DNA of 64,000 bases from a virus. The stretch lies in the IMG/VR virus record IMGVR_UViG_3300047311_000323, positions 1 through 64,000 of that record; one strand, 5' to 3'. Positions 6,001-59,452 of this stretch are shown here, piece by piece; positions within the stretch are counted from its first letter, which is position 1; each line of letters opens with the position of its first letter. Under the pieces are notes generated by a model that worked only from the letters and a program-made list of their open reading frames with translations, had not been told where the DNA came from and did no database searches. The position numbers and the translations under genes were made by a program.

Positions 6001-6288
6001 GTCCTCAGAAATTTTAGCATCCCCATTGAGAGACTCAAATGGGTGAAGTGTGGTAGACTGAAATTGTAGATAGTAGGCCGCGTATGGCGTTAGTGGCTGA
6101 CATGTAATAGACAGCACATTGCCGGTAATCGATACTTGCAGAACTTCTGAGTCGGGAACGTTATTGGTCTGTGAGAGGATAGAGACGTTTGCAGGCACTA
6201 GATCGCCAGTCAATGCTTCTGTAAAAGAAACATCGATACTGGTGCTGTTGTTTATAGCGTTATTAACTATCCTAAGAGTTGCTATCAT
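1..6288 (-). CDS. giant LamG-domain baseplate/tail protein, C-terminus beyond window
   Basis: An open frame runs from an ATG at 6288 to base 1 without a stop, giving at least 2096 residues. The start overlaps the stop of the upstream baseplate-J gene as ATGA, so the two are translationally coupled. Residues ~1-75 look like an Ig-like domain. From about residue 1045 there are concanavalin/LamG-type signatures: EEGTFESWVVPQWNG, then HLFIDGLEV near 1295, and LYIGSDFQG with IDQLTIYS near 1850-1875. A second LamG-like start, GTLEFWMSPLFD, lies near 1960. LamG domains usually bind glycans or pack as jelly rolls. Position next to the wedge genes suggests a baseplate-attached, perhaps receptor-contacting protein. 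The exact role is inferred. Confidence 0.8.
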   Translation of the reverse strand, partial: MIATLRIVNNAINNSTSIDVSFTEALTGDLVPANVSILSQTNNVPDSEVLQVSITGNVLSITCQPLTPYAAYYLQFQSTTLHPFESLNGDAKISEDGVSNRLLITGPLPPDNPVNDYLQSFYRNNIYNATDTTTVVNKYIQSIAVNFSRVLYDIRQLGNENYLSFTVADEIHTKSETPFERLYEEAVYDVFRVGFGPTAAPVATTFVFDSFPSYPVTLQRQLVTEIIKPSSNDSLGTFNINTLTFNLSNNPVTRVNSITFTLLTPDPVFEYEISRLGYQLLNSTFDQDFASSYLLLENNQVKINEVILSDPKFSLDQIFHIVVEYEYKGLGIQVDPSTVNTFATLQSVREVLPPIINIFALKHAPITDASNNTPLVSGVVFIDPNSGTGMPHPAFITEIPFSLSAPPSFPGVYSIDYSTGTVYVYGADSLNDGTGPSPPLATYYYKFTFTPEIDYVYDSDLLELVALPLGNLVTQPGIISFNYEQVLIPGVDYVADSHIESINERVGNRLNALNSLTTLNSPITNVFQIFNETSGEIYLLDRWNNNQVYFRFNSPPRVLQETGENSTFFTVTNELLGINTTTANSSNLRLFAIFLANNTVVNSSQDGLGTSFNTSLVFSNGNIFVREIWFNQEFNTSTNVDRLSSVGEYIVDYQHGVVYVAVSATQDDNIGTVTYKKNSIVPDFPHVVSVDDIYYRISVLNPKNKQFSYTSFGEGEIVPDGLDISDEAFLNGVESSPYQIFQNQVGAFVQSTFVAGVTNAVKFVRSVYEFNDLTNSSNPINFGVVSTSSNFNITVGSINKQSFESVQFDGSNYFITLNENIPYLSPGIIYTFSVTRISDSQSLWNGSGTIVPGNPLKLVLPGIGAPQVGDLCDVTYSFTIVPLQRVIVDYNKGDFFVDYTYVADEILVSYEYGDNVIDFRKNLTLPTGTNYYVSYKVGALRDALLKNFGTLVNVPDLATFDLSLERERYREALQAALSSFIQGPTVAAIKNIGQIITHVEPEIIESAFEIWSLGSSVLFPIGVDTTGSFQLLPAHYGNGVLVDQPDQTITLPVNSNLRLEEGTFESWVVPQWNGIDNDASLTFTITRDGYAIDPYRVFVGGSEYHPVFSDANSFTLSKSSNITGHPNKNKDGIFIYYDKDVSGSFFRWYVEIIDGYVAPDNHTYQFQISSTGKFYDVKPISPIKPANMSTFTGTSKVSLTIRPTFDGYGIDEGITFVSDVDHFILDFGLTKDSNRLSIFKDVSGYMNFRVYDRDHKMYSVSADVSSWRNNVPHMVAASWKLNTRNNRDEMHLFIDGLEVPNIIKYGQKLQPYLHEKFRTVNPEEIVGLATRDIVGSNDLVTTDGSTIVTSSLNFSDFNISIGDTIHINETGFSPVGYTIAQINGQSLVLSDVMQITMTGGKFSINQTDYSVSSEINIAPNIAVTTIHAFTSGTDLNTVAGSAVVTSAGTDFGVLGVKPGFLLRIDNSSFALTYSVIQVNGNALTITDPAPLTLSGAGFQVYSNVENEIPGVRALNPAYDITQDANFNNILTISNDVFLNDLILIRTLGLNFKDIKKQYYVWSSQVENVLQTQLPPPINLDEANITRIITPTVAIGPANSTLMAGVFVSNYLPTAKPSNAQIGRTIQVTISGTNVDFSVPVQVTINGVNELGNTVNETITFTNYGTLDFTNTFISTNYVWVNVKPLNTSKNALALELKEKYPITHSESSGFVPVIRYSYHINGGYTLTGNGVDNVVTDPNNTFSGLDINNYLVIHTPASVAGFYLITGLSADRHSLTIQSTAASFPVPLPYFANAIYQVLNTTQYRSGLQNGYFTLEASVLPSQQYFLDQGFYELEYSTYARIKFDALNTKLYIGSDFQGSSQANAVIDQLTIYSIMLTDTRIGEVVALNKHSVTKDFNSLKPPKIDANTLVLIDFDSFPFTNDARFYSSTNNDHKHFQSDFTVNDNFSESMVILDEPIIMSNDGILDTRKQGTLEFWMSPLFDTSNDPNTRYYFDAFGAVTETVTSTSNVAVKISAPASRVLNVTLAAGDPKIDYFAGGRLETDTQHAIQEESMASGTSIVSVSQPILQVMTVKIVGDLTDKDYFANGNIGTDRKT

Positions 6289-9200
6289 CTGGTTTCAGTG
6301 TTTATATTGATGCTGTTAGGCTGGAAATATTGATCTTCATTGGCGACTATGCTTAGTACTTGACCAGGAAGTCCAGTTACGTTGAAGAAAAGTATTCTAG
6401 CCCTATCTATACCCTGGACGCCCTGAGCTATATTGATTAATGTAATCTGGTCTATTGTTTGACCTAGCTGCGTGGTAGTCAAAGCTGCTACTAGTTGGTT
6501 ACGTAGATTCTGGAGAACCGTAGCAGAGGTGGTTAAGAAGTTCTGATTGACAACTACGTTCATAGTTAGGTCAATTAGAATCAACTTAGCAGATCTGGCT
6601 AGAACGTCCGCATTGATTGGACGGCTATTTTCTATTGTAAAGGTGGTATCTGATATCAACTTATTGTAGTTGTACTGTATCAGGATTCTTTCATTCTGCT
6701 TAGGGGCAAGATAGTTATAGAAGGATGTATATCTGGCACCAATACTTGGTCTGGTAAATGAAGTTGCACTAAACTTAGTAGCTTGAGAAGCCTGGAAACC
6801 GCTGTTTACATAGATTTGGTTAATCAAAGCGAATTTCTTATTTGTATATAACGAGCCAATTCTAGTATATGATAGATTTTCAGAGTCATTATCAACTGTG
6901 TAATAGAAAGTTACCCTAATCAAATCTCCTACAGTTGGTAGGTTATTGGTTGAGCCAGTTAATGTATTATTGGTTGTTGCTGGGAGAACAAAGTCCAGGT
7001 TCGGCAATAGCGGGTTGTAACGCATAGTGTCTGAGAAATACAGGTTAATAGCGATAGTAGTACCAACTACATCAAAAGTGGCCAATACGCTTGTAACAAT
7101 GTCACTTCCGGTGGAGAAGGTTTCTACCTTTTCGGCCTTGACAATCTTAGCAATTTTTATATTGGTCGGAATGCTGGCGGTGGAGCTGAGGCCCAAAGCT
7201 TTGCGCAAAGCTTCTTGTAAATTCTGCTGGAGGCCCGTGCTGGTCGCTGTGAAGATGACATCGCTAGCAAGGGTCATTGAGGTGCCGATAACGGACACTA
7301 CACCTACGTTGACAATCTGATCTACGATAGTTCCTACAATGCGAGTTGGAGCCTTTCGAAGATTTCCAAAGTTGAAGAACATAACATAAACCAAATCACC
7401 AACTGCCGCATTAACGGTTTTAGGAATGATTAGCCTGTTGTTAGCTTGGTCTATAGTACCAGTATAATTCCAAAGCTCTTGACCGTCTAGTACTCTAACT
7501 ACTGAAATCTGGTTAGCTGTAAGATGGTCTAGCGTATTGGTGATAGTGATGTTGTTAGTATTGACATTGTAGCCAATAATATCAAAGTAACCGTCATTAT
7601 TTGGGGCAATGGCGCCTGTAATTTTAATGCGCTTATTGGTTAGATCTGGCAGACTAGAAAAGTTAACTGACAAGCTGTTCAAATTGGCTTGGGTAGCGCT
7701 GATTGGTGTTATGTATCCGTCCAATACATTGAACAGTACAGTATCACTATTGTGCTCTACTACCTCAAAATTTAAACCGCTAGCCTGAGCTGTAAACTCA
7801 ATCAATGGGATAGTGAAGTTCTTGCTAATAGGATCTATTTCTAAATTATCAATACGTGTTCTAATGATTTGATTGCTGAAACTAAATGGCTGAAAGCGTC
7901 TGATATCATCGGCATAGTAAATAACCAATACACGATCGGCGGCAACAGGAACATTGAATCCAGTTAAAATAAGCTGGTAATTACCATCCACGCCCGTAAT
8001 AACTTGGCCTTCATGATCGGCATTCCATAGCTCTTTACCATCTGACAGTCTAACAACAGAAAGAACTTTATCGGCAAATAAGCTGTAATCAGATGCTGAC
8101 AAATCTAGTTCAACGAAAAATTGGTTGCTCAGATTAACTTGAACAATTTGATTTTCTCGTCTTGATACATTCACAACGCTGAAGTTGTTGAATCCACTAT
8201 TGTCAGATAGCGTATATCCATTTCCAGTACGGCTAGTTGGAAGAGAAATGATTGCTGAAGAGAACAAATCATTGACGTTGGCAATATACGTAACTCTTAG
8301 ACTTACTCTATCAGAAGACGATCCAACTAAGATAGATGGAATAGTAACTTGTGTTCCGTTGCTGCTGCCCTGTAAAGTTCCTGATTGGAAAATATTGGCA
8401 CTATTCATATAGACAGATACTCTGTCACCGATCTGAGCCGGGGTATCTGTTGGGAGTATGATGGTAGTTGTAAATACGATGTTGATACCAATAACTCCAG
8501 CTAAATTTGAGAAGGATCCATCGCCCTGTGCAGTCTTGTAAACTTCAGTGCCGTTATTCTTCCAGACGATAGAGTCCACCGATTCGGTAGCAATCTCCAA
8601 ATTGTTAACTACAACAGAAAGTCTGTTAACAAATGCTCCAGATTGAATTAGTTGGACGTAGCCATCTACTTGTAAATAGCTGTCTGTTGATACAATGGTA
8701 TCTACTGGGTGGGTTGTGGTTCCAATATAGAAGTTGTTGCCTGAGCTTAGGGCGAAATCGACCAACTCGGTTTTAATAGCGGATGGATATCCCCAGTCAA
8801 TGCTGTCGGTAACCGTTCTTGGATTTTGGGTGTTTAGCAATCCGTCAAAATCGGAGTACCTATCATAGTCTACTATCCAAGTATAGTCTACCTGTAAAAT
8901 ATCACTAGGTGAAGGTAGGGTGTTACCGGAAACCTTGATTCTTCCAGTATTATTGAATGGAGATGTGGCATCCAAATTTTGATTGGTAATTAGATATCTT
9001 TCACCGGTATTAGTATTGAAAACTCTAGTAACGTTGGTTGCTGGAGTGTGTAGCAATTGAATAATAGTACGGTCACTGGTAACCATACTGTTTTCATTTG
9101 TAACACCCAATTGCTGTTGAACGTCAGTTACTTGTTGTACTTCAGTGAACGTGGTTGGATCCTGGCCGTTGGCCTGGCCCTTGATTAAGTCTTCTTGGAA

Positions 9201-10379
9201 TGAAATCTGATTGTTCTTCCAAACAAACGTATCGAAACCAAATGGGCTACCACCATATACGCTAGTGTCTTTAACTAATAAGTAGTTACCAGAACCTCGA
9301 CCATATTGATCGATAGTGAATGGAATGAAGTTTGAACCGCTGATAGAGCCGGTCACTTGGGTTAGCGAGCTAACTGGTTGGGCTGGCAACTGACCGTTCT
9401 TGATATCCTTTACTCTCTTTTGAGAGATACTGAGGTTAGCATCAGCTACAATCTGTCCCAATACGAAATTGTTTTTGGAGCTGGTAGGATCGTTATTGTT
9501 ACTTTTATCCTGATAGATGAAGGTGTCAGTATTAGAAACATCATTAGTTCCCAGTACCACTACGTCTACCTTGCCTCCAGAACCCTCTGAGACAACCGTT
9601 AGAACGCCATTGATGGTTTCTGTTACCGTGCCATCACGAGTCATTAGCGGGTCGCCTGGCTCAATTACAACGGCATCCTGTACGCCAGTCACACTTAGGG
9701 CTGCGTTTAGGTACCCTAGCTGGGTTCCTACGCTGGAACCACTGAAGGTAGATAGAATACGGTTTCTAAAGGCCGCGTCCGTTTCTTGGTCAGTACCACC
9801 TGCAAAGCTAGCAACGTTAGTTACGTTACTGATGCCAGGAATACTGATTTTAGACAGGGTGTATTGGCCAATGTTACCAGATGAGCCTGGAGAAGATGCA
9901 ATTACTGTAACCTCAACCGCATATTGGTCTGTAATACCGGCAAAGGCTAACTGGGCCGAAAATTTGGTAGCCGTGGAGCGATAGAAATTGATATTGGATG
10001 GTACAATGGAGATACCAGTGGTAACACTAAATCCTAGACCGCCTGAAGTAAAGATTGAGGCGCCTTTGTTAACGTTGATAGTAGCATTCAAAGAAGAGAA
10101 TGTTAGAAGGGCCACTCCAGTAGATGGGGTGGACTGCTTTCTAATTAGTCCGAAGTTCTTTCCCAGTTTATCTAAGTCGGTACCAATAGACAATCTTAGT
10201 GATTGCTTATTGGAGACTCCCTGTAGCTCATCATAAAGAAGAGATAATTGGGATGATGGCCCCTCAATAAACAAATCTCTAGCCACTGTACCTGGTTTGG
10301 TATCCAAGTCTGGTTGAGCCGTTCTGAAAAAGTCTATCAGGTTGGCAATGATTTCATTGACTGACCTTATTGTGACCAT
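6285..10379 (-). CDS. baseplate J-like wedge protein (Mu gp47 / T4 gp6 type), expanded
   Basis: 1364 residues. The N-terminus has the family layout: a helical start (SVNEIIANLIDFF, then KPGTVARDLFIEGPSSQLSLLYDEL), and a core with SSPGSSGNIG and a GGTDQETDAAFRNRIL motif near residues 190-215, typical of baseplate J proteins. Normal family members are 300-650 aa. The extra ~900 residues look like repeated beta-sandwich modules, including two related segments ending in LSVVRLSDGKELW and ISVVRVLDGQELW. The protein should form the wedge ring around the hub that triggers sheath contraction. It lies between the gp25-like gene and the LamG giant, as wedge genes normally do. Ribosome site is TAAGGATA about 6 bases before ATG. 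Confidence 0.88.
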   Translation of the reverse strand: MVTIRSVNEIIANLIDFFRTAQPDLDTKPGTVARDLFIEGPSSQLSLLYDELQGVSNKQSLRLSIGTDLDKLGKNFGLIRKQSTPSTGVALLTFSSLNATINVNKGASIFTSGGLGFSVTTGISIVPSNINFYRSTATKFSAQLAFAGITDQYAVEVTVIASSPGSSGNIGQYTLSKISIPGISNVTNVASFAGGTDQETDAAFRNRILSTFSGSSVGTQLGYLNAALSVTGVQDAVVIEPGDPLMTRDGTVTETINGVLTVVSEGSGGKVDVVVLGTNDVSNTDTFIYQDKSNNNDPTSSKNNFVLGQIVADANLSISQKRVKDIKNGQLPAQPVSSLTQVTGSISGSNFIPFTIDQYGRGSGNYLLVKDTSVYGGSPFGFDTFVWKNNQISFQEDLIKGQANGQDPTTFTEVQQVTDVQQQLGVTNENSMVTSDRTIIQLLHTPATNVTRVFNTNTGERYLITNQNLDATSPFNNTGRIKVSGNTLPSPSDILQVDYTWIVDYDRYSDFDGLLNTQNPRTVTDSIDWGYPSAIKTELVDFALSSGNNFYIGTTTHPVDTIVSTDSYLQVDGYVQLIQSGAFVNRLSVVVNNLEIATESVDSIVWKNNGTEVYKTAQGDGSFSNLAGVIGINIVFTTTIILPTDTPAQIGDRVSVYMNSANIFQSGTLQGSSNGTQVTIPSILVGSSSDRVSLRVTYIANVNDLFSSAIISLPTSRTGNGYTLSDNSGFNNFSVVNVSRRENQIVQVNLSNQFFVELDLSASDYSLFADKVLSVVRLSDGKELWNADHEGQVITGVDGNYQLILTGFNVPVAADRVLVIYYADDIRRFQPFSFSNQIIRTRIDNLEIDPISKNFTIPLIEFTAQASGLNFEVVEHNSDTVLFNVLDGYITPISATQANLNSLSVNFSSLPDLTNKRIKITGAIAPNNDGYFDIIGYNVNTNNITITNTLDHLTANQISVVRVLDGQELWNYTGTIDQANNRLIIPKTVNAAVGDLVYVMFFNFGNLRKAPTRIVGTIVDQIVNVGVVSVIGTSMTLASDVIFTATSTGLQQNLQEALRKALGLSSTASIPTNIKIAKIVKAEKVETFSTGSDIVTSVLATFDVVGTTIAINLYFSDTMRYNPLLPNLDFVLPATTNNTLTGSTNNLPTVGDLIRVTFYYTVDNDSENLSYTRIGSLYTNKKFALINQIYVNSGFQASQATKFSATSFTRPSIGARYTSFYNYLAPKQNERILIQYNYNKLISDTTFTIENSRPINADVLARSAKLILIDLTMNVVVNQNFLTTSATVLQNLRNQLVAALTTTQLGQTIDQITLINIAQGVQGIDRARILFFNVTGLPGQVLSIVANEDQYFQPNSININTETR

Positions 10380-10388
10380 GAGCTATCC

Positions 10389-10820
10389 TTAGATGGTTGA
10401 AATGCTAAAAGCAGTAGTGATTGGTTTGAACCCTTTAGTCACACAACTTATTTTAACGTTGAAGAGTCTTGGATCAAATGCACTTCTCAATACAGATATA
10501 CCTGTTATTGCTGCAAGTTGTTCATCTGCGGTCATTTTTTGTTGAGATTTAACTTGTAGAGTTTGTAAATACTGTAAGTTGGTCAAGCAACTGTTTAATT
10601 GTGATTTGGCTATTTGTACTACTACGCTAGTCTGTTGAGGGTTTCCGATTACTGATCTCGACAAAAAAGAACCATATGACGGATGGATAGGGTTACCACC
10701 TACATCCGTCAGGCAAATCTTGAGAATGTCTTGGATAAGCTTTTCGCTATCCTCTACTTTTTGAAGGTCACCTTGGTTGACTACCAAGTCACCGTTAACG
10801 ATTTTTAGGTCAAAAGACAT
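10389..10820 (-). CDS. gp25-like baseplate wedge protein
   Basis: About 143 residues. The motif order FDLKIVNGDL, then EKLIQDILKICLTDVGGNP and HPSYGSFLSRSVIG, fits the gp25/W family that joins the wedge to the tube and starts sheath assembly. The ATG at 10820 is preferred because AAGGTGGAG sits 5-9 bases upstream. An in-frame TTG at 10856 would add 12 residues but has no clear ribosome site. It lies just before baseplate J, the usual gp25-J order. Family call is strong; the start choice is inference. Confidence 0.85.
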   Translation of the reverse strand: MSFDLKIVNGDLVVNQGDLQKVEDSEKLIQDILKICLTDVGGNPIHPSYGSFLSRSVIGNPQQTSVVVQIAKSQLNSCLTNLQYLQTLQVKSQQKMTADEQLAAITGISVLRSAFDPRLFNVKISCVTKGFKPITTAFSISTI

Positions 10821-10887
10821 GCCGGCTCCACCTTGTAATGCAAAATTATTAGGCAATCCAATGGATTAAAGGTTGGCTCGGGGCCCT

Positions 10888-12759
10888 TCATCCAGAATTG
10901 GCAAGGTTGAGCGCGTTGTTATTCATGTAATCCTGGAAAATCTGGTCCATAATCTGATAGAAACTATTGACTGTATTGCATAAAGAGGTCATAGCTGGAG
11001 TAATTCCTGACCTGACATTCTGCAAAGTACCATCAGGCAATACAAGGATTTCCTCAGCCCTAATAACAGCATCCTCATCCAAAAACCCCAATAAATTACC
11101 AGTACCTTTACTGGCCGGATCGTTGAGCGGCATAACATAGAGAGCGCCCATAATAGCAACAATATCAGCTAAGCCCAATCCACTGAATTCTCCCATAATC
11201 ATTTCAATTATCTGAAGGGCATCACCGGCCTCTTCTAGCATCTTATTTCTTATGCCAGTTAGGTTCTCTTGTGACTTGGCGCTTAGATTTCCTTGAGCAT
11301 CTGAGGTACTTGCATCAAAAGTAAGCTTATAGTTAGAGAAAGCAAAATTTCCTGGGTCAGGAGTTGCTGTGGGCTCAATAATTGAGCCATTAAGATTAGA
11401 CATAACTACGCTAGCTTGCTTAGCAATAATGTCAAAATCGAAGGGTGTAAAAAGTGCAGGATCGATATTCTTACTAAGTGGCACACTACGTATAGAACAG
11501 CCACCTTCAGGCCCCGTAGTATCCGGTATAGGTAGCCAGTAATAGAAGCCCTGTCTAGCATGAACGATTCTCATAGAGTCAACTAGTTTGTATATCATTG
11601 AGCGCATAGTAGATAGGTATTGTGCGAAAGCTTGCTGCTGTGATAGGTTAAATACACTGCCACTAAAAATGTTACCAATAGTAGTGGTACCGATAGTTAT
11701 ACTTTGCAGTGCTTTGTTGCCCTTGATGTAGTCTATAGTGTTTTTTACATCAGCGCCAGCATCATTTACTGTTGGTGTTGAAAGCCTGTCTCTGATTACT
11801 TTTTCTAGTAATGGTCTTTCGGCTCTCGCAGTGCTACTCGTTTTCAAATAGCTGGCGTCATAAACAAATGGGATAGCGATTCTTTTAGATACACCAGTGG
11901 ATGTCTTAGATTCGGCGGCCCAGATGCTAAAGTCAATTCTAGGATCAACCATGAATGGCTTTATGATATGCTGGTGCTGCGATAGGATGTTGTAGCCTGC
12001 CTGATTAGGCTTAAATTGCTTACTAGGGTCTGCATTAATATCTTGAAAATCAGCAAGTCTAACTTCTCTATCTCCAGTTAGTGTATAGGTAGAAGCTATA
12101 TTGCCAGGCACAGAATAAGACTGGTTTTCAACCTTAAAATCAAATGGCTCTGTATTTTTGAATGGTTGGGCAAAAGGGCGTCTATTTACGTTACTACCTT
12201 TACCATAAGTTCCAGAAGTCAAAGATAATACGCCGGCCTCTACTGATTGAGGAACCGAAAAGATTTGAGCGCACTGAGATGCGTACTCTTCTCTTTTCTG
12301 TGATAAGTCTTCAAATTTAGTTCCGATGTTCGTTGCTATTCTTAGCTTTCTTTCCAGAGTAATAGAACGCTCAATATCTTCGCCCATAACAATATCAAAA
12401 CCAGGATTGTAAAAATCACTTTGGTCTGAATTGATTACAGGAAATCCAATAACTCGATAAAAAGCGTGGCATCTACTCTCCTGAGACAATTGAACAGGAG
12501 TAGTCGTGTTAGGAGTTCCAGCAATCGTATTGGCTGCGGGGTCGATGTTTAGCGCTTTAATCAGGTCTGCAGTTTTACTACCAGTTATGGTAATACTAAT
12601 CTGAGCCCTGATATCATCAATACCGATGTTCAAGCCAGGTTCGTTATCATCTGGCGTATGACCACCAGTAACGAAATGCTTGAACATCTTTTTGATATCA
12701 GGGTCAGAGTTCTGACTGCTTTGTGAATTGGCTTGTAGCGTATCATCTGTATCTGCCAT
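10888..12759 (-). CDS. baseplate-associated structural protein, unknown family
   Basis: 623 residues, no family recognised. The N-terminal ~25 residues are polar and probably disordered. The rest is mixed alpha/beta, with helices around LLEKVIRDRL and IRNKMLEEAGDALQIIEMIMGEF near the C-terminus. No signal peptide; one moderately hydrophobic stretch (GLADIVAIMGALYVMPL). Its ATG overlaps the preceding stop as TAATG, so it is co-translated with the membrane-segment protein upstream, and it precedes gp25. Position among hub, spike and wedge genes makes a virion baseplate role likely. No DGY tripeptide occurs in it, unlike most neighbours. Confidence 0.7.
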   Translation of the reverse strand: MADTDDTLQANSQSSQNSDPDIKKMFKHFVTGGHTPDDNEPGLNIGIDDIRAQISITITGSKTADLIKALNIDPAANTIAGTPNTTTPVQLSQESRCHAFYRVIGFPVINSDQSDFYNPGFDIVMGEDIERSITLERKLRIATNIGTKFEDLSQKREEYASQCAQIFSVPQSVEAGVLSLTSGTYGKGSNVNRRPFAQPFKNTEPFDFKVENQSYSVPGNIASTYTLTGDREVRLADFQDINADPSKQFKPNQAGYNILSQHQHIIKPFMVDPRIDFSIWAAESKTSTGVSKRIAIPFVYDASYLKTSSTARAERPLLEKVIRDRLSTPTVNDAGADVKNTIDYIKGNKALQSITIGTTTIGNIFSGSVFNLSQQQAFAQYLSTMRSMIYKLVDSMRIVHARQGFYYWLPIPDTTGPEGGCSIRSVPLSKNIDPALFTPFDFDIIAKQASVVMSNLNGSIIEPTATPDPGNFAFSNYKLTFDASTSDAQGNLSAKSQENLTGIRNKMLEEAGDALQIIEMIMGEFSGLGLADIVAIMGALYVMPLNDPASKGTGNLLGFLDEDAVIRAEEILVLPDGTLQNVRSGITPAMTSLCNTVNSFYQIMDQIFQDYMNNNALNLANSG

Positions 12760-14951
12760 TAGCCGCTATCCTTATCCCTAGATAGGTCGCCAGCATCACG
12801 ACGTGGCTGAGTGCCCGTGGTATCGCCGTCTCCTGTGAGTGGGATGTTGTCTGGTGCGTGTGGCGAGAAGACAAATTCGTAGTTTAGATTCTGTAGTGCA
12901 TGAACTGGAGGAACAGTACCATCAACTGAGCCCAAAGTGTTTGTACATAGGACTTGGTTTTGGAACGAGATGATAATCTCTCCCTGTCCAGGGTCTGTAC
13001 TAGTTAGATTGGCCGTGAATGCCTGATAACCGTCATAAGCAAATGGAGAGACGGTCCCAACAGTAGGTGTTGCTTTGATATTTTTAGCAACATTGGCCGC
13101 AACATCTGCTGGAATACCATTAGTAATTGGCAGCCCATTATTCTCATTAAGGTTGACGGTTATTACGATTGGTTGAGTAGTGAACTGAGAAGTCGGAGAA
13201 ATACTAAATGTACTCTCACAAGGATTGAATCCAATTCCAATGAGTCCGAAGATGGCGTCTTTAGCGTCAAGCTCTAGCTTATGCAAACAAGTAAGACAGG
13301 TTGTCTGGAATTCAGCAACACCAGCCACAGTCATATTAGAACGCAAGTTAGAGACGGCAGTTGTTAGACATTCTTGAGCTTGTGCTGTGTCTGGGAAGAC
13401 TCTGCCATTCCTGCCATGCACCTGGTCCGATAGGGCCGCAGACTGGAATCCTACCTGAGAGAACATAACGGTGTTCAAGAATCCAGAGTTTAGAGCGATG
13501 GCAGGCATACACTTCATGTTAACCAAGTTCTTCTGTAATAGTACGGGAAGGTTTGGTTTGAATGTATACTCCATATTGGAGAATGTGTATCCGTCAGTTG
13601 GCAATAGAACTGGGTTAGCGGAGAACTTCGCTGGCTTATGAATAAAGTTGCCAAGCGTAGCCTGCTTGTCAGTCTGAGATTGGGTGCCATCAGCATTATC
13701 CTGGAATCCGAATAGCTTAGTAGTACCATCATCTTCATAACCTAGGCCACCGCCAAGAGATAATACACCGGTTAAAACAAGTGAGGTCCCATTATTGTAA
13801 GCAAGTAAGTCCTGAGAAGGTACTTTCAAAACGATGCAATCCTTAAATCTAATGAATCTAGGATCGCCAGGTCTATTATCCCACTGCGATGGATTGTAGA
13901 ACAGTCTTAGGTCCATAGTATAGGCAGCCTGTCCCGGAGGAGTATTGGCGTCATACTTGGCATCTGTTGGGAAGAAGATTGGCTTTGGAACAACACTGTT
14001 ATTTACATCGAATGCATTAACAATGTTCTGGAAGGCTTGCTCTTGACTCTGGTTAGCGTCATACAACTGCCAGCTCTCTGTACGAAGATCAGAGGTTAAG
14101 AATAGGCTACCCAACGCTACATTGGTTTGATATCCTGCTTGCGGTAGATATTGGAATGTACCAGTCTTGTTAGTGAAGTTTCCTTGAACGATAGTTGGAC
14201 AGTAAGTAGCTGCGCAGCAACCATCGGTGCTACCTGGACCACCACCCTCACATGGAGGGATAGAGAAGATTAAGCTTAGGATGTCCTTGATGACCTGAAT
14301 AATGATTGTGAACAGAGCTAGTAGAACGAACAAGTTCTGGAAAATACACAACAGGGCGCCTAGCTTTTTAGCGATAGTGAGAACGCTGGTAGCATTAGCT
14401 GAGTTAAATGCTTTTACCAAAGCATTGATGTTTCTAAGAATTGCTTTGATGAGCTTTAGAATTTGATCAATGATGTACAAAATCAAAGCCAGCAATAATA
14501 GCAGCAATGATATGATCATTAAGATCAAAGCAAATATAGGAAATAGATTTAGGAACTCTGGGATACACTGAGTAAACAATCTATTAAGCGCCGAGATAAG
14601 GGCGAAAGGATTCATCAAAGCACATAGAACTTCGATAATACAGATAATAAGATTGAGAATCGGTAAGAAGAATTTATACAACATTAGGAATGGCATGAAC
14701 TGATCTAACAGCTTCATGATTCCGTCGTAAATATCTTTTCCAAAATTAGGATTTAATTGAGGTTTCAATGCTCCAGGAGGAATAAGCATTTGCAGCTTAT
14801 TCATCAAATCTAGCAAATCTTCTGGGAAATTGGTAGGATATGGAATAGTAGGTACTGGCAAAACCGAAGGAATGCCAAATCCCGGGAGGGAAGGACCACT
14901 AGGACCATCTGGAGAAGGGAATGAAACATCATTAGGACTGCAAGGACACAT
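12759..14951 (-). CDS. baseplate-region protein with several membrane segments
   Basis: 730 residues. A Pro/Gly-rich, Cys-containing start (MCPCSPND) leads into a strongly hydrophobic block with likely membrane helices near residues 84-112, 133-161 and 198-222. A Cys-rich linker (PPCEGGG, DGCCAATYC) follows, then a ~480-residue soluble region that looks beta-rich. It lies between the spike gene and a baseplate gene in the same operon, so it is probably a virion component. Membrane helices are expected of tape measures or ejection proteins, not of ordinary baseplate parts. A role in piercing or sealing the host membrane is inference. AAGGATAT precedes the ATG at an unusually long spacing. Confidence 0.75.
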   Translation of the reverse strand: MCPCSPNDVSFPSPDGPSGPSLPGFGIPSVLPVPTIPYPTNFPEDLLDLMNKLQMLIPPGALKPQLNPNFGKDIYDGIMKLLDQFMPFLMLYKFFLPILNLIICIIEVLCALMNPFALISALNRLFTQCIPEFLNLFPIFALILMIISLLLLLLALILYIIDQILKLIKAILRNINALVKAFNSANATSVLTIAKKLGALLCIFQNLFVLLALFTIIIQVIKDILSLIFSIPPCEGGGPGSTDGCCAATYCPTIVQGNFTNKTGTFQYLPQAGYQTNVALGSLFLTSDLRTESWQLYDANQSQEQAFQNIVNAFDVNNSVVPKPIFFPTDAKYDANTPPGQAAYTMDLRLFYNPSQWDNRPGDPRFIRFKDCIVLKVPSQDLLAYNNGTSLVLTGVLSLGGGLGYEDDGTTKLFGFQDNADGTQSQTDKQATLGNFIHKPAKFSANPVLLPTDGYTFSNMEYTFKPNLPVLLQKNLVNMKCMPAIALNSGFLNTVMFSQVGFQSAALSDQVHGRNGRVFPDTAQAQECLTTAVSNLRSNMTVAGVAEFQTTCLTCLHKLELDAKDAIFGLIGIGFNPCESTFSISPTSQFTTQPIVITVNLNENNGLPITNGIPADVAANVAKNIKATPTVGTVSPFAYDGYQAFTANLTSTDPGQGEIIISFQNQVLCTNTLGSVDGTVPPVHALQNLNYEFVFSPHAPDNIPLTGDGDTTGTQPRRDAGDLSRDKDSG

Positions 14952-14970: not shown

Positions 14971-17067
14971 TCAAACAGATGTGGCTGGTAGCAATGCAAC
15001 TAGCCTGTGATTTACATACAGATTATCTGCATCGATGTAAATCGGACCATCACTTTTCATATTGATGCCCTGTGCTCCGTACAAGTTCAAAACTGATGGT
15101 GTCATAATAGTTACACCCTTAGCATCTACTCGGAACATATGAGCATATCCGCCGGCAAAGACTCTTAAGTCCATGGTAGCAATCCAAGTGTCATCTTTGC
15201 CCTTGAACCTTGCATCACTAGCTGCAATACCGAATCCACCTACCTGTACAAAAACATCCCCATCAAAATTTACCATAGCACTTCTATTATTTCGATCTCT
15301 ACCGATATTAGCAACCATCCCGCCAGCAGTATCTAACCAGAGAGACTGTCTGTCAATGGTATTTGCTCCGATGTTCATTTCCAAAGAACCATCTAGATTG
15401 ATAGAGCCGCTACGTCCACCAGCCTTAGCATCTGGACCGGATACCTTAATCTTAGTACTGACCAAATCTGACAAGTCTTTAATATAAGACGTATCAATAG
15501 GATCTTCCATAGTCTGTAACTGATAATTCTCAATTGTCCTACCATCTTGATGCAAAGAGCAGGTCTTCAAGATATCATGATAAGCTGTACCATGTCTAAT
15601 GCTATAGACGCTCTTAGCTACGAATTGGCTAATACGATCATGCGGACCAGCATCATTATTGTTTGTTCCATCTATTAGCTGTATGGATCCATGTAGGAAC
15701 TGTGGCTTACCACCCACATCAGCAGCGCTTGTTTCAAGCATAGGGGCGGCAAATGAATCTACGAAGATATCTTGGCTAACTGGCTGGCCACTCTTAGGGA
15801 ACCATAACTGATTAGGGTTGCTATTATCAGTGGTTGCAAAGGTAGAATAGTTTTCTGGTCTTACCAATAATGGAATGTTACCAGTCTCACTAGAGGCCGG
15901 TACATTTAGTTTGAATTGTCCTTCTTTATCAACATCAAAAGAGAATCTGCTACGTTGCAATTTAGCATTGTAGTTATCATCATTGATGCCTAACGCAGTG
16001 CCTTGATTAGTTGGCTTTGGATCTTTGCGAGAGTTGATCTCAAAATGGAAAGCGACGCTCTTTCTTTCAAGAGCGCGGATATTCAAATATGATTTTTTAG
16101 AATCAGTAGTGGCTACAGTTCCATTAGTTCTTAGTGTAGTGTCAGCAGTAAGGCCAATAGGAAGTGGAAGTCTATTTAGATCAAGGATGTTTCCGAAAAT
16201 GTCTACTACAGTACCTTTAACTTCTTCGATTAGGAAGTTAGGGGCAACTGAGCTTAGACTCATAGTATCGGCACGGCTACTGCGCCTATTGGGCGTACTA
16301 TAAACCTTTGCGGCTTGTGCCGTGGTAGTATACTTATTTGATTCAGAATTCAGATCATCTATATTAGATCCTAGCTGAAATTCATAGACAATTTGACGGT
16401 GTTCGACAAAGGCAGGATTCTTAGTTGGTCCAGTTCTAATGTCATTGGCAGTAGAAGTTGGATCTAAACCAATCACTGAGTAAATTGGATCGTATGCATC
16501 ATCTTCTAGTTTGGTACTTCCGCTGTATGATGCTGCCTGAGGATTTGGTTGTAAATCTCTTTTAACTAATCCGCCAACTTCACGATAGGCTTGCGTAAAA
16601 TGATTTTCGTTTTCAAAGTTGAAAGTAACAAGATTGCTTTTTGGATACTTCTGGCTTCCAGCAAAAACATGAATGTTATTTACATCAGATCCAATCTTGA
16701 TATTACTATCTAAATCAAGTAGTATCTTGGATGAGTCTGAAGAGCGAATAAGCATTTGGCCAGGTAACAACTTAGGAATGATGTTACGATTTTCTGGCTC
16801 GTAATTAACGAAATGGTACTGCCCTCCCAAACTCTGAGCTACTGTAACTGGAGTATTCTTAGCAGGTAGTGAACCGATAAACATACCAGCACTATCTATT
16901 AGAGGGAAAACTCGTGGGATACCCACAGAAGGCGCTTTACCCCTAATAGCATTAACTTCGGTTAACTGAACTCTAAATTCATTACCGGATGAATCGACTA
17001 TAGATCCGGCACGCAGCATGCCTGATGGTGGGTCGAATATGTTAATGCCTGCTTTTATAGTTGTCAT
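14971..17067 (-). CDS. central baseplate spike-like protein
   Basis: 698 residues. The N-terminal region (INIFDPPSGMLRAGSIVDSSG) and the following beta-rich segment resemble an OB/spike platform. The C-terminal ~170 residues have short repeating strands (INLDGSLEMNIG, GGMVANIGRD, VNFDGDVFVQVGG, TPSVLNLYGAQGINMKSDG), like the beta-helical spikes of gp5/VgrG-type proteins. It lies directly downstream of the large hub gene. In contractile tails the spike trimer caps the hub and punctures the outer membrane. No lysozyme domain was recognised, unlike T4 gp5. Function is inferred from the repeats and position. Confidence 0.65.
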   Translation of the reverse strand: MTTIKAGINIFDPPSGMLRAGSIVDSSGNEFRVQLTEVNAIRGKAPSVGIPRVFPLIDSAGMFIGSLPAKNTPVTVAQSLGGQYHFVNYEPENRNIIPKLLPGQMLIRSSDSSKILLDLDSNIKIGSDVNNIHVFAGSQKYPKSNLVTFNFENENHFTQAYREVGGLVKRDLQPNPQAASYSGSTKLEDDAYDPIYSVIGLDPTSTANDIRTGPTKNPAFVEHRQIVYEFQLGSNIDDLNSESNKYTTTAQAAKVYSTPNRRSSRADTMSLSSVAPNFLIEEVKGTVVDIFGNILDLNRLPLPIGLTADTTLRTNGTVATTDSKKSYLNIRALERKSVAFHFEINSRKDPKPTNQGTALGINDDNYNAKLQRSRFSFDVDKEGQFKLNVPASSETGNIPLLVRPENYSTFATTDNSNPNQLWFPKSGQPVSQDIFVDSFAAPMLETSAADVGGKPQFLHGSIQLIDGTNNNDAGPHDRISQFVAKSVYSIRHGTAYHDILKTCSLHQDGRTIENYQLQTMEDPIDTSYIKDLSDLVSTKIKVSGPDAKAGGRSGSINLDGSLEMNIGANTIDRQSLWLDTAGGMVANIGRDRNNRSAMVNFDGDVFVQVGGFGIAASDARFKGKDDTWIATMDLRVFAGGYAHMFRVDAKGVTIMTPSVLNLYGAQGINMKSDGPIYIDADNLYVNHRLVALLPATSV

Positions 17068-17076
17068 TATAGCCTA

Positions 17077-20000
17077 TTACTTTGTTGTTGAATTAGCTAC
17101 AGCGGCGGGAACCTGCTCAAAACTAATCCAGCAATCAATAATATAACTAAAAAGAGCAGTTCTTAGAGCGTTATTGTTAGCTGACATTGCAGCAGCATCA
17201 GTTCCATCATCATTACCAACCGGATTAGAAGAACTTGGAGCGCCAGTATTAGTTGATGTAGTAGCCATTTGATTTCTTGCTGCATCAATAGCCTGTTGAG
17301 ATGGAGAGTGTCTAGATTTTTGATTATCCATATTTACAGGAACTACCTCAACCGATCCCTTTGGTAAACCTTTGTTTTCAACTGGGGCATTTTGGAAGCT
17401 TACAGATTTTGGACCACCACTTGGGTTTATCATCTGTTCAGCTATGCCATTAGCCTGTTGTTTAAGATTTATGCTAAGTGGATTTTTGTTGTCGTAATAG
17501 ATACGTAATTCAATTTTGGCCTTAACGTTATTACCGGCAGACGAATTAGAATTCAAAATGTATTGAGTGTTATACAAGATGTTGTTAAACACCTTGGTGT
17601 TGGTAGTAGTGTTTGGGTCTATTGAATTTGTTGACTCTTGTCCCGTTGAAAGTTGAATAGTGCCACCTTTAGTCTTCAACTGAAACACGCCCAAACTCTC
17701 TTCATTAGCCGAAGACTCTTGTCTGTGGATAACCATATCAGCCACTTCTTGATTCTTGTAAATCAACTTTCCAATGCTATCCATTACGGTTGGAATATAC
17801 TCTCCAATACCATGTCCATAAGTCAACTCTAATGTAGTAGTAAATCCACTACCTAAATCAAGAGAGTGAGAAACTGAGCTAACATAGAACAGCATGTTAC
17901 GGTCTTCCAAGAAGATAACTTCACCAGGCTGCATGTATTCATTGCCAGAGATAGTGAGTGAGCCGCTTAGGACGCTGTGCCTATCACGAGAAAGGATGAT
18001 AGCTGCATATGGGCCGAGCTGTGACGAAGGGTCTGTTAAAAATGGTACGTTGATTGTATACGGTTGTTTGAAACCATAGTTGCGCCACATGTCATAGTCG
18101 ATAGCAATGGCCGTAACCAAAGCGTTGCCGCCACCTGGGAATGTATTCAAACCAGGAGGGCCTCCACCACCTTCATTTTCAGAGAAGAATGGCAAAGTTC
18201 CGTGCACTTCAACGGAAGTATAATTGGGGGCGCGTTCGCCAATTCGTATGCTTCTAATCTGAGAGCGTCTAATAACATATCGGTCACCAGAGCCAGGACC
18301 GTAATCATCATATGACTCATCTTCTATCATATGCTCATACACTTCTGGAATGAAACTCTTCTTGAAATTGCCGGGGTTAAGTAAAGAGTTAGTGGTAGCG
18401 GTGCCATTATCTATTGACTTGAACTCTGTGGCATTTTTAATAGAATGATAGAACAGCTTAACTGCTGACTGCCATTCTTGCACATAGGTAGTTAACTCAT
18501 TGGTGACTTTGAAAATATCAACTGTCTGACCGGTATCTAGCTCAATTGCGGAGTTGGGCCCAGCTTGTGTTAGGTAGTCTTTGCTAGTGATGTATTGTCC
18601 AGACTTTGTCTGAATACGTGTGATTAACGTTTGGAAAACACTCTGCTGAAAAATAGAAGTAGTTGGTGCACTTGAAGTATTGCTACCGCTTTGTTTCAAG
18701 TTCTGCTGCTCTAGAGCCTGATTAAGTATGTAGTATTTTTCTGCACTTGAGAATAGAACTTTATTGGAAGTTCCAGCGCTTTTCACCGCTCCAAAATTAT
18801 CAAGTGATAAATCTGACGCGCTAGCCGCTGTACTTGGATTTGCAGCCAGTATTAGATTCTGATAGTTAGAGATGTTGTCGCTTGAATCAGAGACAAATTG
18901 AAATACAGCTCCATTACCAGCATTTACTGAAGACTCGAATAGAAAGGCCGTAGCCTCTTTGTCGCCCTCAAAATCTGCTGAGCTGTAAGCCCCTAAGATG
19001 GCACAATCTAGCCTTATTAGGTCTTCAAGAACCTCAATACGATTTCTTAGCGAACTTATCTGGTCTTCAAATAGGCTGTTCATAAACTCTGGAAATATCT
19101 GAACTCCTAGCGCGTGTTTCAGATAAATCATTCTATTGTATACTGAGCTTGGCATCCTATTATACTGGGGCGGCCTTACACGAATATGACCCTGTGAGTC
19201 ACAAAACACTTCTAGGTTGAGCAAGTCTGCTACATGTGAAATTTGAGAGGCCACATCGCTATACTCTGTGGAATACATTTCCACACCTTTAGCTAAGGCT
19301 TTATTGAACGCAGCAATATCGTAGTCTATGTCATAGTAATCGTCCACTATGAATAGGTTCTTATCTGAGTTGCCCCTAACATCATAAGACATACGTCTTG
19401 TTAGATAGTTAGTTTGCTTACGTAATTCTTTGCGGCCCGTAGAGTCAGACGGATCATTTTTCCCGTCAACTAGATTATTACTATCCGCTCCTGGTTGTGT
19501 GGTAACCGTACCAAAAAATTGGTTAGAGGCCGATTGAAATTCTCGGATGGTACTATCAATAGAGGCTCTAAGTACTTTAGCTTTACCCTGAAGTTCTGAT
19601 GCTCTAGCTTGTGATACGCTATTAGAAATTTGTCCCGGGATTTTTTCAGAGAAAGCATTGATAGCGCCCAAAGCGACTAGCGATCTTTGAACGTCTGCAA
19701 GTTCCTGTATCTTTTTATCTAGATCAGAATTCTTCTGTGTAATGGTAGATTGAGCCTGCATAGACTGCGCTATAGCGGCATCACTCATAACTAGATTTTT
19801 GAATGGAATGAAATTACCCCATAGAGAATTGGTCTTTGACAAACTAGTTCTCAATGAGTTAATGAAAGAGTAAGATGGGTCTTGTCTACTCTGAGGATCT
19901 CCCGTTATTCCATACAGATTCTGGGTGGTCTTGAAATAAGTTGCGTAGTTGTATGGTATACCAGTAATCAAAAGAGATATGACGTTCATAACATCTAGTC

Positions 20001-22158
20001 CAGCAAATGGCTGCTGATATGGATTGGTAATACCAACTAAATTAGGATCGTTAATGGTATTGATAGAGCCGTTTTGAACGAAAATTCCAATACCTTGTTT
20101 CCACTTATAAGCTAATCCATCAGGAGCATAAAAGACTCTTGTCAACCTTCCAGTAGTTGGGTCTATGCTCTGATCCTGAATGTAATTTCCCTGCGTAGCC
20201 TTCTGTCCAGTTAGCGCGCCTTGCTTATACTTGACTAGAGACTCTTTACCAGTTTGTGATAGCAAATATACGTTCTCATCGAGTAACTGTGGTGAGTGTC
20301 CAGATACGGTCCCATTGGTAGTGACATCATCAAAATTGGATTTGAACGGAGTTAATGGGTCGAAAATCATTCCGTTGAAATTATTAGTTCCCGGTTTGAA
20401 ATTGACTTTACCCTGTCTAAAATACAAAGTGTTATCACTGCCGCTTATGTCAACTGTGAATTTACCACCTGACCAATTGTCCAGTGCCGACTCTACTACT
20501 CCAGCGAAAACATGAGTACCTTCATTTTCAGAAGTAAATTGGCCTCTCATAGTGGCCCATAGATAGTTAGGGAAACTAGGACCAACAAACATATTCTTCT
20601 CTGCTTGTACGGCGGTATTTTTGCTTGGATTGAAAAGAGTACTAAGTTCGTTTTTGAATGCGGTTGCAGTATTATTGATATTTTGTAGAATGCCAAACCC
20701 ACTAAACATCTGAGTTAGCCCTGACAAAATTTTGTGGTCTACTTGGCTCTTGGACTTCATATAGACGTGGACTACGTCCATTGGCTGAACAATCAGTTTA
20801 CCAGAGAAGTTGAAACGCAACTTTCTACGAGCATAGTTGTATGACTTGTTATCAGCAGTGAAGTTACCTGCGGCATTAGATAGTAGTGTTATCTGTGAAT
20901 AGATAGTGGCGATAATTGATTGGAAAGCTTGCAGCTCTGAGTTGCCGTGGCTTTTGCTCTTAGCGTTATTCTTCCAAGGATAACCGGTATATCCTGGGCC
21001 TTTGTCTAGACCATCATAACCAGCAATTTCACCACCTCTTAAGAATTCGGCGGTTACATCAACGCCACCGCTTCCAGTTAGGCTTAAAGCGCCCAATGGA
21101 TTGAAAGTGAACTGAATCTCTACGCCTAGACGATCGATAATGGCTCTTACTCTTTTACCCAACAAGGTGTCAGGTTCTACCTTAAAAGTAATCGGGCTAG
21201 CGTTTCTGGCGCTTCTAATTTTATTCAGTTGGCTTTGTTGGCTGCTTATAACTTGATTAGCGGACTGTGCTCCAAACTGAAATGTCTTGCTATTGTAAAA
21301 CAGGTTGGTTGCATCACTAAGTGCCACTTCGATATCATAATCAGTAATTAGCATTGACTCATAAGGGTCAGAAATGCTAAGACTGAATCTACCAGGAGAC
21401 TTGATATCAGTCGTAGTAGTTGTGCTAATTCTTGTAAAATTAGTTAGCTCAATAGTTCCGGTACCAGATCCGAAGATAGACTGAAATAGATTAGTAGGAT
21501 CGGTTATCCAAGTAGTATACTGGTTAGTATGATTGAATGCTTGTAATGTACGCAGTCTATCTACTGTCTTAATGAAACTAGAAGCATCTTTATCTAATGG
21601 ATTACTTCCGCTACCAAAAGCGCCAAATAAATTGTTACCACCACCAAAAACACCACCTGCGCCACTATTGAATACATTGCCAGTAGCGGTATCGGCCAGC
21701 GTGATAATGAGGGGTAACAACTGTTCATTGACATTGCCAACTGCGGCTGTTACTTGTTGAATTTTGCTTAGCTTCTCAAGTGCAGAGATTTGATGACACT
21801 TATTCTGCATCAAAATTTTGATAGCCTTGTAGTAGAGCCTTTCGTCAGCATCCATAAAATCAGGACGAAAATTTTCTGCTACAGAAGAAAACATTCTCTT
21901 CTTCACTAGAACAGTTGCATTCGGCTCTTGCCATAGGGTATCAAATTGCTTTGGATCAGTATTGTAAGGGTCTCTTCTCAGATATCCCTCTTCAATGTAT
22001 CTTCTTTCAGCAGACTGGTCAAATTGGGACGCAAAATCGCCTAGAGAACCATACTTTACATTTTGGTCGTCAATGACGGCATCCAAAGATGTAGTGGTAT
22101 TTTCTCCCAAATTGAATTGGCTGCTTATCGCATCCCCTAAATCACCTAAAAAACTCAT
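17077..22158 (-). CDS. very large baseplate hub protein
   Basis: 1693 residues; no exact family named. Features consistent with a gp27/gpD-type hub include a segment on placing and using coordinates of the tube end (QPMDVVHVYMKSKSQVDHKI near residue 470) and a C-terminal third with short beta stretches (YMQPGEVIFLEDRNMLFYVSSVSHSLD), typical of hub domains that speak of solution space and velocity of strands. A helical Gln/Ser-rich stretch (ITQKNSDLDKKIQELADVQRSL) may be a coiled coil. Its ATG overlaps the upstream stop (ATGA). At 1693 aa it is several times longer than T4 gp27 (391 aa). Position between the tail-end protein and the spike supports the hub call. Confidence 0.6.
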   Translation of the reverse strand: MSFLGDLGDAISSQFNLGENTTTSLDAVIDDQNVKYGSLGDFASQFDQSAERRYIEEGYLRRDPYNTDPKQFDTLWQEPNATVLVKKRMFSSVAENFRPDFMDADERLYYKAIKILMQNKCHQISALEKLSKIQQVTAAVGNVNEQLLPLIITLADTATGNVFNSGAGGVFGGGNNLFGAFGSGSNPLDKDASSFIKTVDRLRTLQAFNHTNQYTTWITDPTNLFQSIFGSGTGTIELTNFTRISTTTTTDIKSPGRFSLSISDPYESMLITDYDIEVALSDATNLFYNSKTFQFGAQSANQVISSQQSQLNKIRSARNASPITFKVEPDTLLGKRVRAIIDRLGVEIQFTFNPLGALSLTGSGGVDVTAEFLRGGEIAGYDGLDKGPGYTGYPWKNNAKSKSHGNSELQAFQSIIATIYSQITLLSNAAGNFTADNKSYNYARRKLRFNFSGKLIVQPMDVVHVYMKSKSQVDHKILSGLTQMFSGFGILQNINNTATAFKNELSTLFNPSKNTAVQAEKNMFVGPSFPNYLWATMRGQFTSENEGTHVFAGVVESALDNWSGGKFTVDISGSDNTLYFRQGKVNFKPGTNNFNGMIFDPLTPFKSNFDDVTTNGTVSGHSPQLLDENVYLLSQTGKESLVKYKQGALTGQKATQGNYIQDQSIDPTTGRLTRVFYAPDGLAYKWKQGIGIFVQNGSINTINDPNLVGITNPYQQPFAGLDVMNVISLLITGIPYNYATYFKTTQNLYGITGDPQSRQDPSYSFINSLRTSLSKTNSLWGNFIPFKNLVMSDAAIAQSMQAQSTITQKNSDLDKKIQELADVQRSLVALGAINAFSEKIPGQISNSVSQARASELQGKAKVLRASIDSTIREFQSASNQFFGTVTTQPGADSNNLVDGKNDPSDSTGRKELRKQTNYLTRRMSYDVRGNSDKNLFIVDDYYDIDYDIAAFNKALAKGVEMYSTEYSDVASQISHVADLLNLEVFCDSQGHIRVRPPQYNRMPSSVYNRMIYLKHALGVQIFPEFMNSLFEDQISSLRNRIEVLEDLIRLDCAILGAYSSADFEGDKEATAFLFESSVNAGNGAVFQFVSDSSDNISNYQNLILAANPSTAASASDLSLDNFGAVKSAGTSNKVLFSSAEKYYILNQALEQQNLKQSGSNTSSAPTTSIFQQSVFQTLITRIQTKSGQYITSKDYLTQAGPNSAIELDTGQTVDIFKVTNELTTYVQEWQSAVKLFYHSIKNATEFKSIDNGTATTNSLLNPGNFKKSFIPEVYEHMIEDESYDDYGPGSGDRYVIRRSQIRSIRIGERAPNYTSVEVHGTLPFFSENEGGGGPPGLNTFPGGGNALVTAIAIDYDMWRNYGFKQPYTINVPFLTDPSSQLGPYAAIILSRDRHSVLSGSLTISGNEYMQPGEVIFLEDRNMLFYVSSVSHSLDLGSGFTTTLELTYGHGIGEYIPTVMDSIGKLIYKNQEVADMVIHRQESSANEESLGVFQLKTKGGTIQLSTGQESTNSIDPNTTTNTKVFNNILYNTQYILNSNSSAGNNVKAKIELRIYYDNKNPLSINLKQQANGIAEQMINPSGGPKSVSFQNAPVENKGLPKGSVEVVPVNMDNQKSRHSPSQQAIDAARNQMATTSTNTGAPSSSNPVGNDDGTDAAAMSANNNALRTALFSYIIDCWISFEQVPAAVANSTTK

Positions 22159-23126
22159 AGAAGTCCTGACAATGCTCCTACTATACCACCTGCGTTACCA
22201 GGATTTGCGACAACACCAATACTAGTATTAGTATTTATTTGCGTGTCTCCATTGAAAGAACCAGGAGTATTGTATGCACTGGGGCCGCTAGCTGGGCTGT
22301 TGTGCCATGGGAAGTAGTTGGTCCTGTATCCTCTTCTCTGAGTAACCATAAAGATCATGTTGTAATCAAGTAAGAAGTTATCGGCTCTTTCAGTAATAGT
22401 CATGCTATCAAAGAATCCACGATAGACCCAACCATTGTAATACATTTCAACACCAAATGCCAAAGAGGCTAATGATGGAATGTTTCTGGCTGACAAGTTA
22501 TTGTTTGGAGAATCAAGGCCAAGAATACCACCTAGTAATCCTGCGCCTCCAGCGCCGGCTGCTGCTTGATTTTGAGCGCCAAACAAACCACCAACTGCTT
22601 TGCCAATAGCGCTACCAGCACCATTTATTAGATTGTTAGCAAGGTCTGCCGAAGCGTTGTTGGCTGCGAGCGTCAAACCCGTAGCATCGAATGCATACTG
22701 TTCTGCACGGTAAAGTTCATAGAGCATATTGATGCCTTCAATTCCAGAACTACCAGTCGTGCCGCTGATACTAAGTTGGCTTAACTCTTCTCCCCAATAC
22801 TGTAGAGTATATCCTCCCTTAGTTCTATCCTTGTTGATAAGTTTCTTATGTGTATATGTGATGTTCTGTGGGTTAATGAACATTCTGACTGTTCCAAATT
22901 GTGGAACGAACCAGGTGATGATATTTCTACCAATCTTACCAGAGACACCTGGAGTAATCTTTGTATATGGTAATCCGTTTCCATCTGCAGATGGCGTAGA
23001 GGCCACAAGGAATCCATTAGATTCAAAAGCCGCCAGATTACTTTGCGTAAGTGGGTTAGCTCCGTTTAGAGCCGATTGAACTTTATTAATTCCGCCAATA
23101 GCGTCATCGAGAGAGAATTTAGCCAT
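22155..23126 (-). CDS. tail/baseplate adaptor protein next to tape measure
   Basis: 323 residues. A conserved-looking core runs from VPQFGTVRMFINPQNITYTH through YTLQYWGEELSQLSISG to GINMLYELYRAEQ, then a low-complexity Gly/Ala linker (~170-200) and a beta-rich end with VEMYYNGWVYRGFFDSMTIT. This arrangement is common in phage proteins encoded just after the tape measure that connect tube to hub. Its stop overlaps the ATG of the hub gene, supporting assembly together. AAGGATAA precedes the start. The specific T4 counterpart (gp48/gp54/gp53) cannot be decided here. Confidence 0.6.
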   Translation of the reverse strand: MAKFSLDDAIGGINKVQSALNGANPLTQSNLAAFESNGFLVASTPSADGNGLPYTKITPGVSGKIGRNIITWFVPQFGTVRMFINPQNITYTHKKLINKDRTKGGYTLQYWGEELSQLSISGTTGSSGIEGINMLYELYRAEQYAFDATGLTLAANNASADLANNLINGAGSAIGKAVGGLFGAQNQAAAGAGGAGLLGGILGLDSPNNNLSARNIPSLASLAFGVEMYYNGWVYRGFFDSMTITERADNFLLDYNMIFMVTQRRGYRTNYFPWHNSPASGPSAYNTPGSFNGDTQINTNTSIGVVANPGNAGGIVGALSGLL

Positions 23127-59417: not shown

Positions 59418-59445
59418 TTGACACGTAATTTTTAAGTTTTAGAGT
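59418..59445 (+). promoter_or_regulatory. possible promoter of CCA-adding enzyme
   Basis: TTGACA (-35, perfect) at 59418 and TAGAGT (-10, 4/6) at 59440 with 16 bases between. Transcription would begin about 59452, at or next to the ATG. Consistent with an early, host-polymerase promoter, but the -10 box is weak. Confidence 0.45.
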
Positions 59446-59452
59446 GCCCAGC

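Follow-up and report, generated by a model that had tools for sequence, protein, structure and literature searches.

A conserved membrane-type protein encoded beside the candidate spike gene in the contractile-tail modules of huge phages, with a predicted role at the host inner membrane

The window analysed here is a stretch of 64,000 nucleotides (positions 1 to 64,000 of the 198,396 bp IMG/VR virus record IMGVR_UViG_3300047311_000323), and it carries a tail module whose genes run from right to left in the order sheath, candidate tube, two small ORFs, 783-aa candidate tape-measure protein, candidate tube initiator, 1693-aa candidate hub, 698-aa candidate spike (P0003), 730-aa protein (P0001), 623-aa protein (P0002), gp25-like protein, gp6/J-like protein and a giant tail protein (Table 1). 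The sheath gene indicates that the tail is contractile. The sheath, gp25 and J identities are profile matches, while those of the tape measure, hub and spike come mainly from position and weak matches, and it is on such grounds that we infer P0003 to be a candidate central spike. The original prediction had placed the 730-aa gene between spike and wedge genes, and its neighbours, the spike candidate on one side and the 623-aa, gp25-like and gp6/J-like genes on the other, agree with this. Genes of the window have clear AGGA Shine-Dalgarno sites, which are unusual in Bacteroidota, and so a host assignment taken from a Chitinophagales MAG contig was set aside.

Table 1. Coordinates of the tail-module genes, the parts of P0001 and other ORFs noted (positions in the window unless a relative's locus is named)
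Feature	Location	Strand	Remarks
gp6/J-like baseplate wedge protein	6285..10379	-	PF04865
gp25/W-like wedge or sheath-initiator protein	10389..10856	-	
623-aa soluble partner (P0002)	10888..12759	-	start overlaps the 730-aa stop by 1 nt
730-aa baseplate-module protein (P0001)	12759..14951	-	N-terminal hydrophobic block
P0001 residues 1-84	14700..14951	-	Pro/Gly-rich low-confidence N-terminal tail, near-invariant Cys4
P0001 hydrophobic helix 1 (85-113)	14613..14699	-	contains C104-xx-E107-xx-C110
P0001 helix 114-134	14550..14612	-	links hydrophobic helices 1 and 2; invariant P115, C129, P131; mean charge net positive in relatives
P0001 hydrophobic helix 2 (136-162)	14466..14546	-	26-residue run without charge or amide
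P0001 residues 163-197	14361..14465	-	amphipathic helical connector, helices 2 to 3; net +6 in the window
P0001 hydrophobic helix 3 (198-222)	14286..14360	-	
P0001 Cys-rich linker (234-256)	14184..14252	-	C234, C245-C246, C251-P
P0001 soluble part	12867..14183	-	beta domain 257-467, helical 468-576, Ig-like (Big-1/filamin/IPT-type) 577-695
P0001 C-terminal tail (696-730)	12762..12866	-	conserved PRRDxGD motif
698-aa candidate central spike (P0003)	14971..17067	-	position, repeat-like C-terminus, one weak DUF2345 match
1693-aa candidate hub	17077..22158	-	weak match, position
Candidate tail-tube initiator	22155..23126	-	weak matches
783-aa candidate tape-measure protein	23139..25490	-	no hydrophobic helix
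Two small ORFs	25494-25814, 25850-26527	-	precede the tape-measure candidate, where tail-assembly chaperones usually lie
Tail sheath	27338..30166	-	
154-aa ORF	37182-37646	-	hydrophobic segments near N-terminus; weak holin PHROG match (E 0.043); within the structural region
Patatin-like phospholipase	49618-50478	-	PF01734, E 1.7e-29; among late genes
tRNA nucleotidyltransferase	59444-60676	+	PF01743, PF12627, PF13735; opposite strand to the structural genes
Inverted 730/623 pair	L141:5268-9556		inverted relative to spike, gp25 and J
Acidic 116-120-aa ORF	L007:9092-9445, L008:9619-9978		between spike and 730-aa gene; 38 other loci
HNH-like ORFs	L031:8720-9493, L042:9316-9996, L045:8938-9996, L062:9177-10004 and 13703-14398, L012:13872-14648, L017:14035-14775		

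The 730-aa gene is an intact minus-strand ORF with an ATG start, the plus strand across the same interval is filled with stops, and its 1-nt overlap with the 623-aa gene recurs in many relatives. Hydropathy (Kyte-Doolittle, 19-residue windows, with a cut-off of at least 1.6 for segments) gave three segments at residues 85-123 (peak 2.61), 128-172 (peak 3.38) and approximately 193-234 (peaks 2.63 and 2.41), in agreement with the strong helices originally predicted at 84-112, 133-161 and 198-222. Against 20,000 shuffles of the protein's own residues the peak of 3.38 had P = 5e-5, and 70 windows passed 1.6 compared to 12.4 expected. Residues 136-161 contain no charged or amide residue, and the hydrophobic helices have moments of only 0.13-0.22 and no polar face, compared to 0.43 for the charged connector at 163-183. 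P0001 stands apart from the rest of the 41 window ORFs scanned: only two others peaked above 2 (the 154-aa ORF at 37182 with 2.53, a 103-aa ORF at 44293 with 2.43) and no other ORF scanned in 6285-30166 exceeded 1.81.

An AlphaFold2 model of P0001 (mean pLDDT 72) has helices at 92-113, 115-134, 137-183 and 187-229 and, after them, three soluble domains of beta, helical and Ig-like type, although as a monomer model with a pTM of only 0.43 its inter-domain packing is unreliable. The Cys-rich linker and the approximately 480 soluble residues that had been predicted to follow the helices were both recovered, in a protein with 17 cysteines and a cluster from C234 to C251. A fold search with the whole model gave Ig-like domains (Big-1, filamin, IPT) as its top PDB matches and nothing else credible, and we take these to be the predicted C-terminal domain. 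P0002 was modelled with a confident fold (pTM 0.84) which, when compared to the PDB, gave no match and no functional clue.

A single-sequence query of IMG/VR with the 730-aa protein found 34 viral loci and an alignment query 66, and a scan with distant members matched 178 stretches, the best 80 of which went into an alignment. The contigs reach 480 kb, and the carriers are a large clade of huge tailed phages. The family is previously undescribed: INPHARED phages, Pfam, PHROGs and the PDB held no supported match to it, sequence searches of Pfam, PHROG and PDB gave nothing significant, and a tblastn search with three members against 50,697 phage records returned zero matches. Six of 43 members did show similarity to PHROG 305 (tape measure) at E 0.016 or weaker, but this lay over the hydrophobic block and was judged to be hydrophobic composition, so kinship to that group was rejected. 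Bacillus phage G, Tunturi_5 and Eggerthella phage LE2-3, cultured phages among the matches to the J protein of the window, showed nothing like this block among the module genes examined.

Conservation within the protein is highest in the hydrophobic block, with column identities of 0.87, 0.81 and 0.73 in segments 1, 2 and 3 against 0.55-0.59 in the soluble domains, and dN/dS relative to two relatives (L001 and L002; two further comparisons had saturated dS) was 0.028 and 0.006 in the block, compared to 0.059 and 0.051 for the gene as a whole. Each of the three segments retains its hydrophobicity across 87 distinct rows that reach down to 33% identity (lowest peaks 1.99, 2.02 and 1.79), and likewise in the best 80 of the 178 stretches, down to 31% identity (minimum peaks 1.98, 2.75 and 1.85). 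An artefact, a wrong frame or chance hydrophobicity was ruled out by the shuffle test, the dN/dS values and the homologues. Ten cysteines (C4, C104, C110, C129, C202, C234, C245, C246, C251 and C481) are at least 95% conserved in the alignment reaching 31% identity, and an acid, E or D, occupies position 107 in 79 of the 80 rows of the best 80 stretches. Of 166 rows, which include repeats of the same contigs, 162 have C-xx-[E/D]-xx-C and 157 have the C...CC...CP cluster. The median number of cysteines is 15 in this protein and 0 to 5 in the other module proteins.

A homologue search that noted position relative to the spike genes, as had been suggested with the original prediction, found the gene in 189 of 190 loci with both spike and J in the first scan; some of these loci were recruited by the 730-aa gene itself and several per contig were left unmerged, so that they are not independent, and loci were also recruited via the spike and J genes to reduce circularity. 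The exception is L141, in which the 730/623 pair lies at the same place with open frames but inverted, and so L141 was rejected as a phage lacking the gene. Among 79 loci recruited by distant members (from the best 80 of 178 stretches) a spike gene lies alongside in 78 and a J gene in 76. The order spike, (118-aa ORF), 730, 623, gp25, J is constant across the first locus set and, counting the inverted L141, the 730-aa gene lies between spike and gp25/gp6 in every locus holding both, which makes it a fixed part of the baseplate module.

The bracketed member of that order is a strongly acidic ORF of 116-120 aa which is present in 40 of the 66 loci. The window's clade lacks it, and searches of the window's record and of most distant loci did not detect it. 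On the model of Eag proteins it could act as chaperone to the hydrophobic block, although it gave no match to DUF1795, and its non-detection in the window's record means that it cannot be a general requirement there. HNH-type homing endonuclease-like ORFs, recognised by eye, also occur among the baseplate genes in several relatives, where they flank the 730/623 pair on one side or the other.

The original prediction took as its premise that baseplate proteins are normally soluble, and the same hydropathy test was applied to known tails: no protein comparable to the 730-aa one was found in the T4, Mu, P2, Myrna and G baseplates tested, and in T4, Mu, P2 and Myrna the 35 tail proteins other than tape measures peaked at no more than 2.07, in T4 gp7, which is also the highest value when the phage G proteins tested are counted. 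This protein is located in the soluble baseplate wedge and is annotated with a C-terminal ‘predicted integral membrane domain’, its peak lying at 879-907. The tape measure of P2, gpT, has a hydrophobic region of the same kind as that of P0001 at 533-616 (peak 2.49). Mu and Myrna had no such region in the tape measure or elsewhere among the tail proteins tested, and a membrane block is therefore not universal in contractile tails. In the family studied here, the tape-measure homologue had no segment of at least 1.8 in 53 loci (several of the ORFs being partial at the locus end). This pattern, as a comparison of sequences, fits a membrane role that may have moved to a dedicated baseplate protein.

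We propose that the 730-aa protein may be a dedicated membrane-insertion subunit near the spike which forms or lines an inner-membrane conduit after contraction, and to this we give an even chance; its location in the virion, insertion, assembly into an oligomeric pore and timing are all part of what we infer. It would be an obligate structural part of the contractile-tail baseplate, its three-helix N-terminal block being loaded by the central spike or hub and shielded by oligomerisation or partner proteins, and its C-terminal beta, helical and Ig-like domains would anchor it in the baseplate. Once contraction of the sheath has taken the tube past the outer layers, the block would be exposed and would insert into the host inner membrane as an oligomer, forming or lining a conduit for DNA and so doing the same job as that proposed for tape-measure transmembrane segments of Pam3, diffocins and some phages that target Gram-positive bacteria. 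A broader and more tentative suggestion, which we think possible but on balance somewhat doubtful, is that throughout this clade of huge phages the task of penetrating the membrane has passed from the tape measure to a dedicated pore protein of the baseplate, encoded next to the spike, in which a Cys-acid-Cys motif is conserved within the membrane and a Cys-rich hinge possibly responds to the redox state of the compartment.

The conservation of the block shows that it is important, yet suits a packed core as well as a pore. The helices might never meet lipid and might instead pack in a homo-oligomer or in the lumen of the hub or tube, closing the distal tail end or holding the spike and the tape measure; the very high conservation, in which P, C, Y, F and A residues are invariant, points to just such tight and specific packing, T4 gp7 is a precedent for a baseplate protein with a predicted membrane domain in its annotation, and the divergent L141 has charged residues within helix 2. 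We nevertheless consider this rather unlikely, because three helices of approximately 25 residues have no polar face, the hydropathy of the block is far above that of the other baseplate proteins tested, and every homologue keeps the segments hydrophobic.

The host machinery would normally insert polytopic helices as they are made, and the protein could then be an anchor in the inner membrane of the infected cell, supporting baseplate assembly as a platform or chaperone while being dispensable or absent at entry. The 1-nt overlap of the 730 and 623 genes suggests co-assembly and the acidic 118-aa ORF adjoining the gene in many loci could be a soluble assembly factor, but a position in the core baseplate operon, with only virion genes adjacent, is typical of virion components and the large soluble beta and Ig-like domains look structural, which makes this improbable. 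Less probable still, and in our view very much so, is a cargo that enters with the spike and works in the host membrane, for instance by excluding other phages, in the manner of T6SS effectors with transmembrane domains. Its N-terminal helices, a gene that adjoins the spike gene as in VgrG-effector pairs and the small acidic neighbour in many relatives resemble such a system, but there is no PAAR or prePAAR, toxin-like domain or variable C-terminus, and the whole protein is conserved and always present, unlike exchangeable cargo.

The route of T4 DNA through the cell wall to the cytoplasm has been termed ‘essentially unknown’ (PMC11054660) and a study of Mu found, apart from the tape-measure route proposed for T4, no evidence in myophages of the distal tail going through the inner membrane (PMC11915804). 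With its predicted role as a dedicated membrane-insertion subunit, the 730-aa protein is a good candidate for the component by which DNA gets across the host inner membrane, and an always-present, spike-adjacent, membrane-type protein offers one gene with a block of approximately 150 residues that is open to expression, reconstitution and imaging.

One close parallel is with tape-measure proteins, whose transmembrane helices have been proposed as inner-membrane conduits in Pam3, diffocin CD1366, phiCD119, TP901-1 and some phages that target Gram-positive bacteria (PMC10996793). Like the 730-aa protein, some tape measures have a hydrophobic helical block of transmembrane type in a tail protein with a proposed role in crossing the inner membrane, but in the present family a separate protein carries the block, one that is encoded in the spike-gp25 interval and bears large beta and Ig-like domains. 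A tape-measure gene has the tail-assembly chaperones on one side and the tube initiator or hub on the other, a place occupied here by the 783-aa ORF, and no significant sequence relation links the 730-aa protein to tape-measure families, PHROG 305 included. T4 gp7 is likewise a baseplate protein bearing a hydrophobic segment, but it is a wedge protein with one segment (2.07) where the 730-aa protein has three (2.6, 3.4 and 2.6), and PHROGs and Pfam scans detected no relation between the two.

The T6SS prePAAR effectors Tse6 and RhsA share with the 730-aa protein N-terminal hydrophobic helices, a neighbouring spike gene, a contractile machine and, at some loci, a small adjacent gene. The prePAAR motif, AARxxDxxxH, was found in none of the 166 homologue rows, a Pfam scan of 43 members gave no match to a PAAR domain, and the protein has no toxin domain, nor is its small neighbour a DUF1795 protein. 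Transmembrane domains of T6SS effectors need only hydrophobicity and are poorly conserved (PMC7773334), whereas the helices of the 730-aa protein are strongly conserved and not merely hydrophobic. Ejection proteins of podoviruses are virion proteins proposed to enter the envelope and build a DNA conduit (PMC8954989). A DNA conduit through the envelope is also what we propose for the 730-aa protein, which differs from them in being encoded in a contractile baseplate operon. Proteins of this kind, such as T7 gp14/15/16 and P22 gp7/16/20, belong to short-tailed phages and are stored in the capsid.
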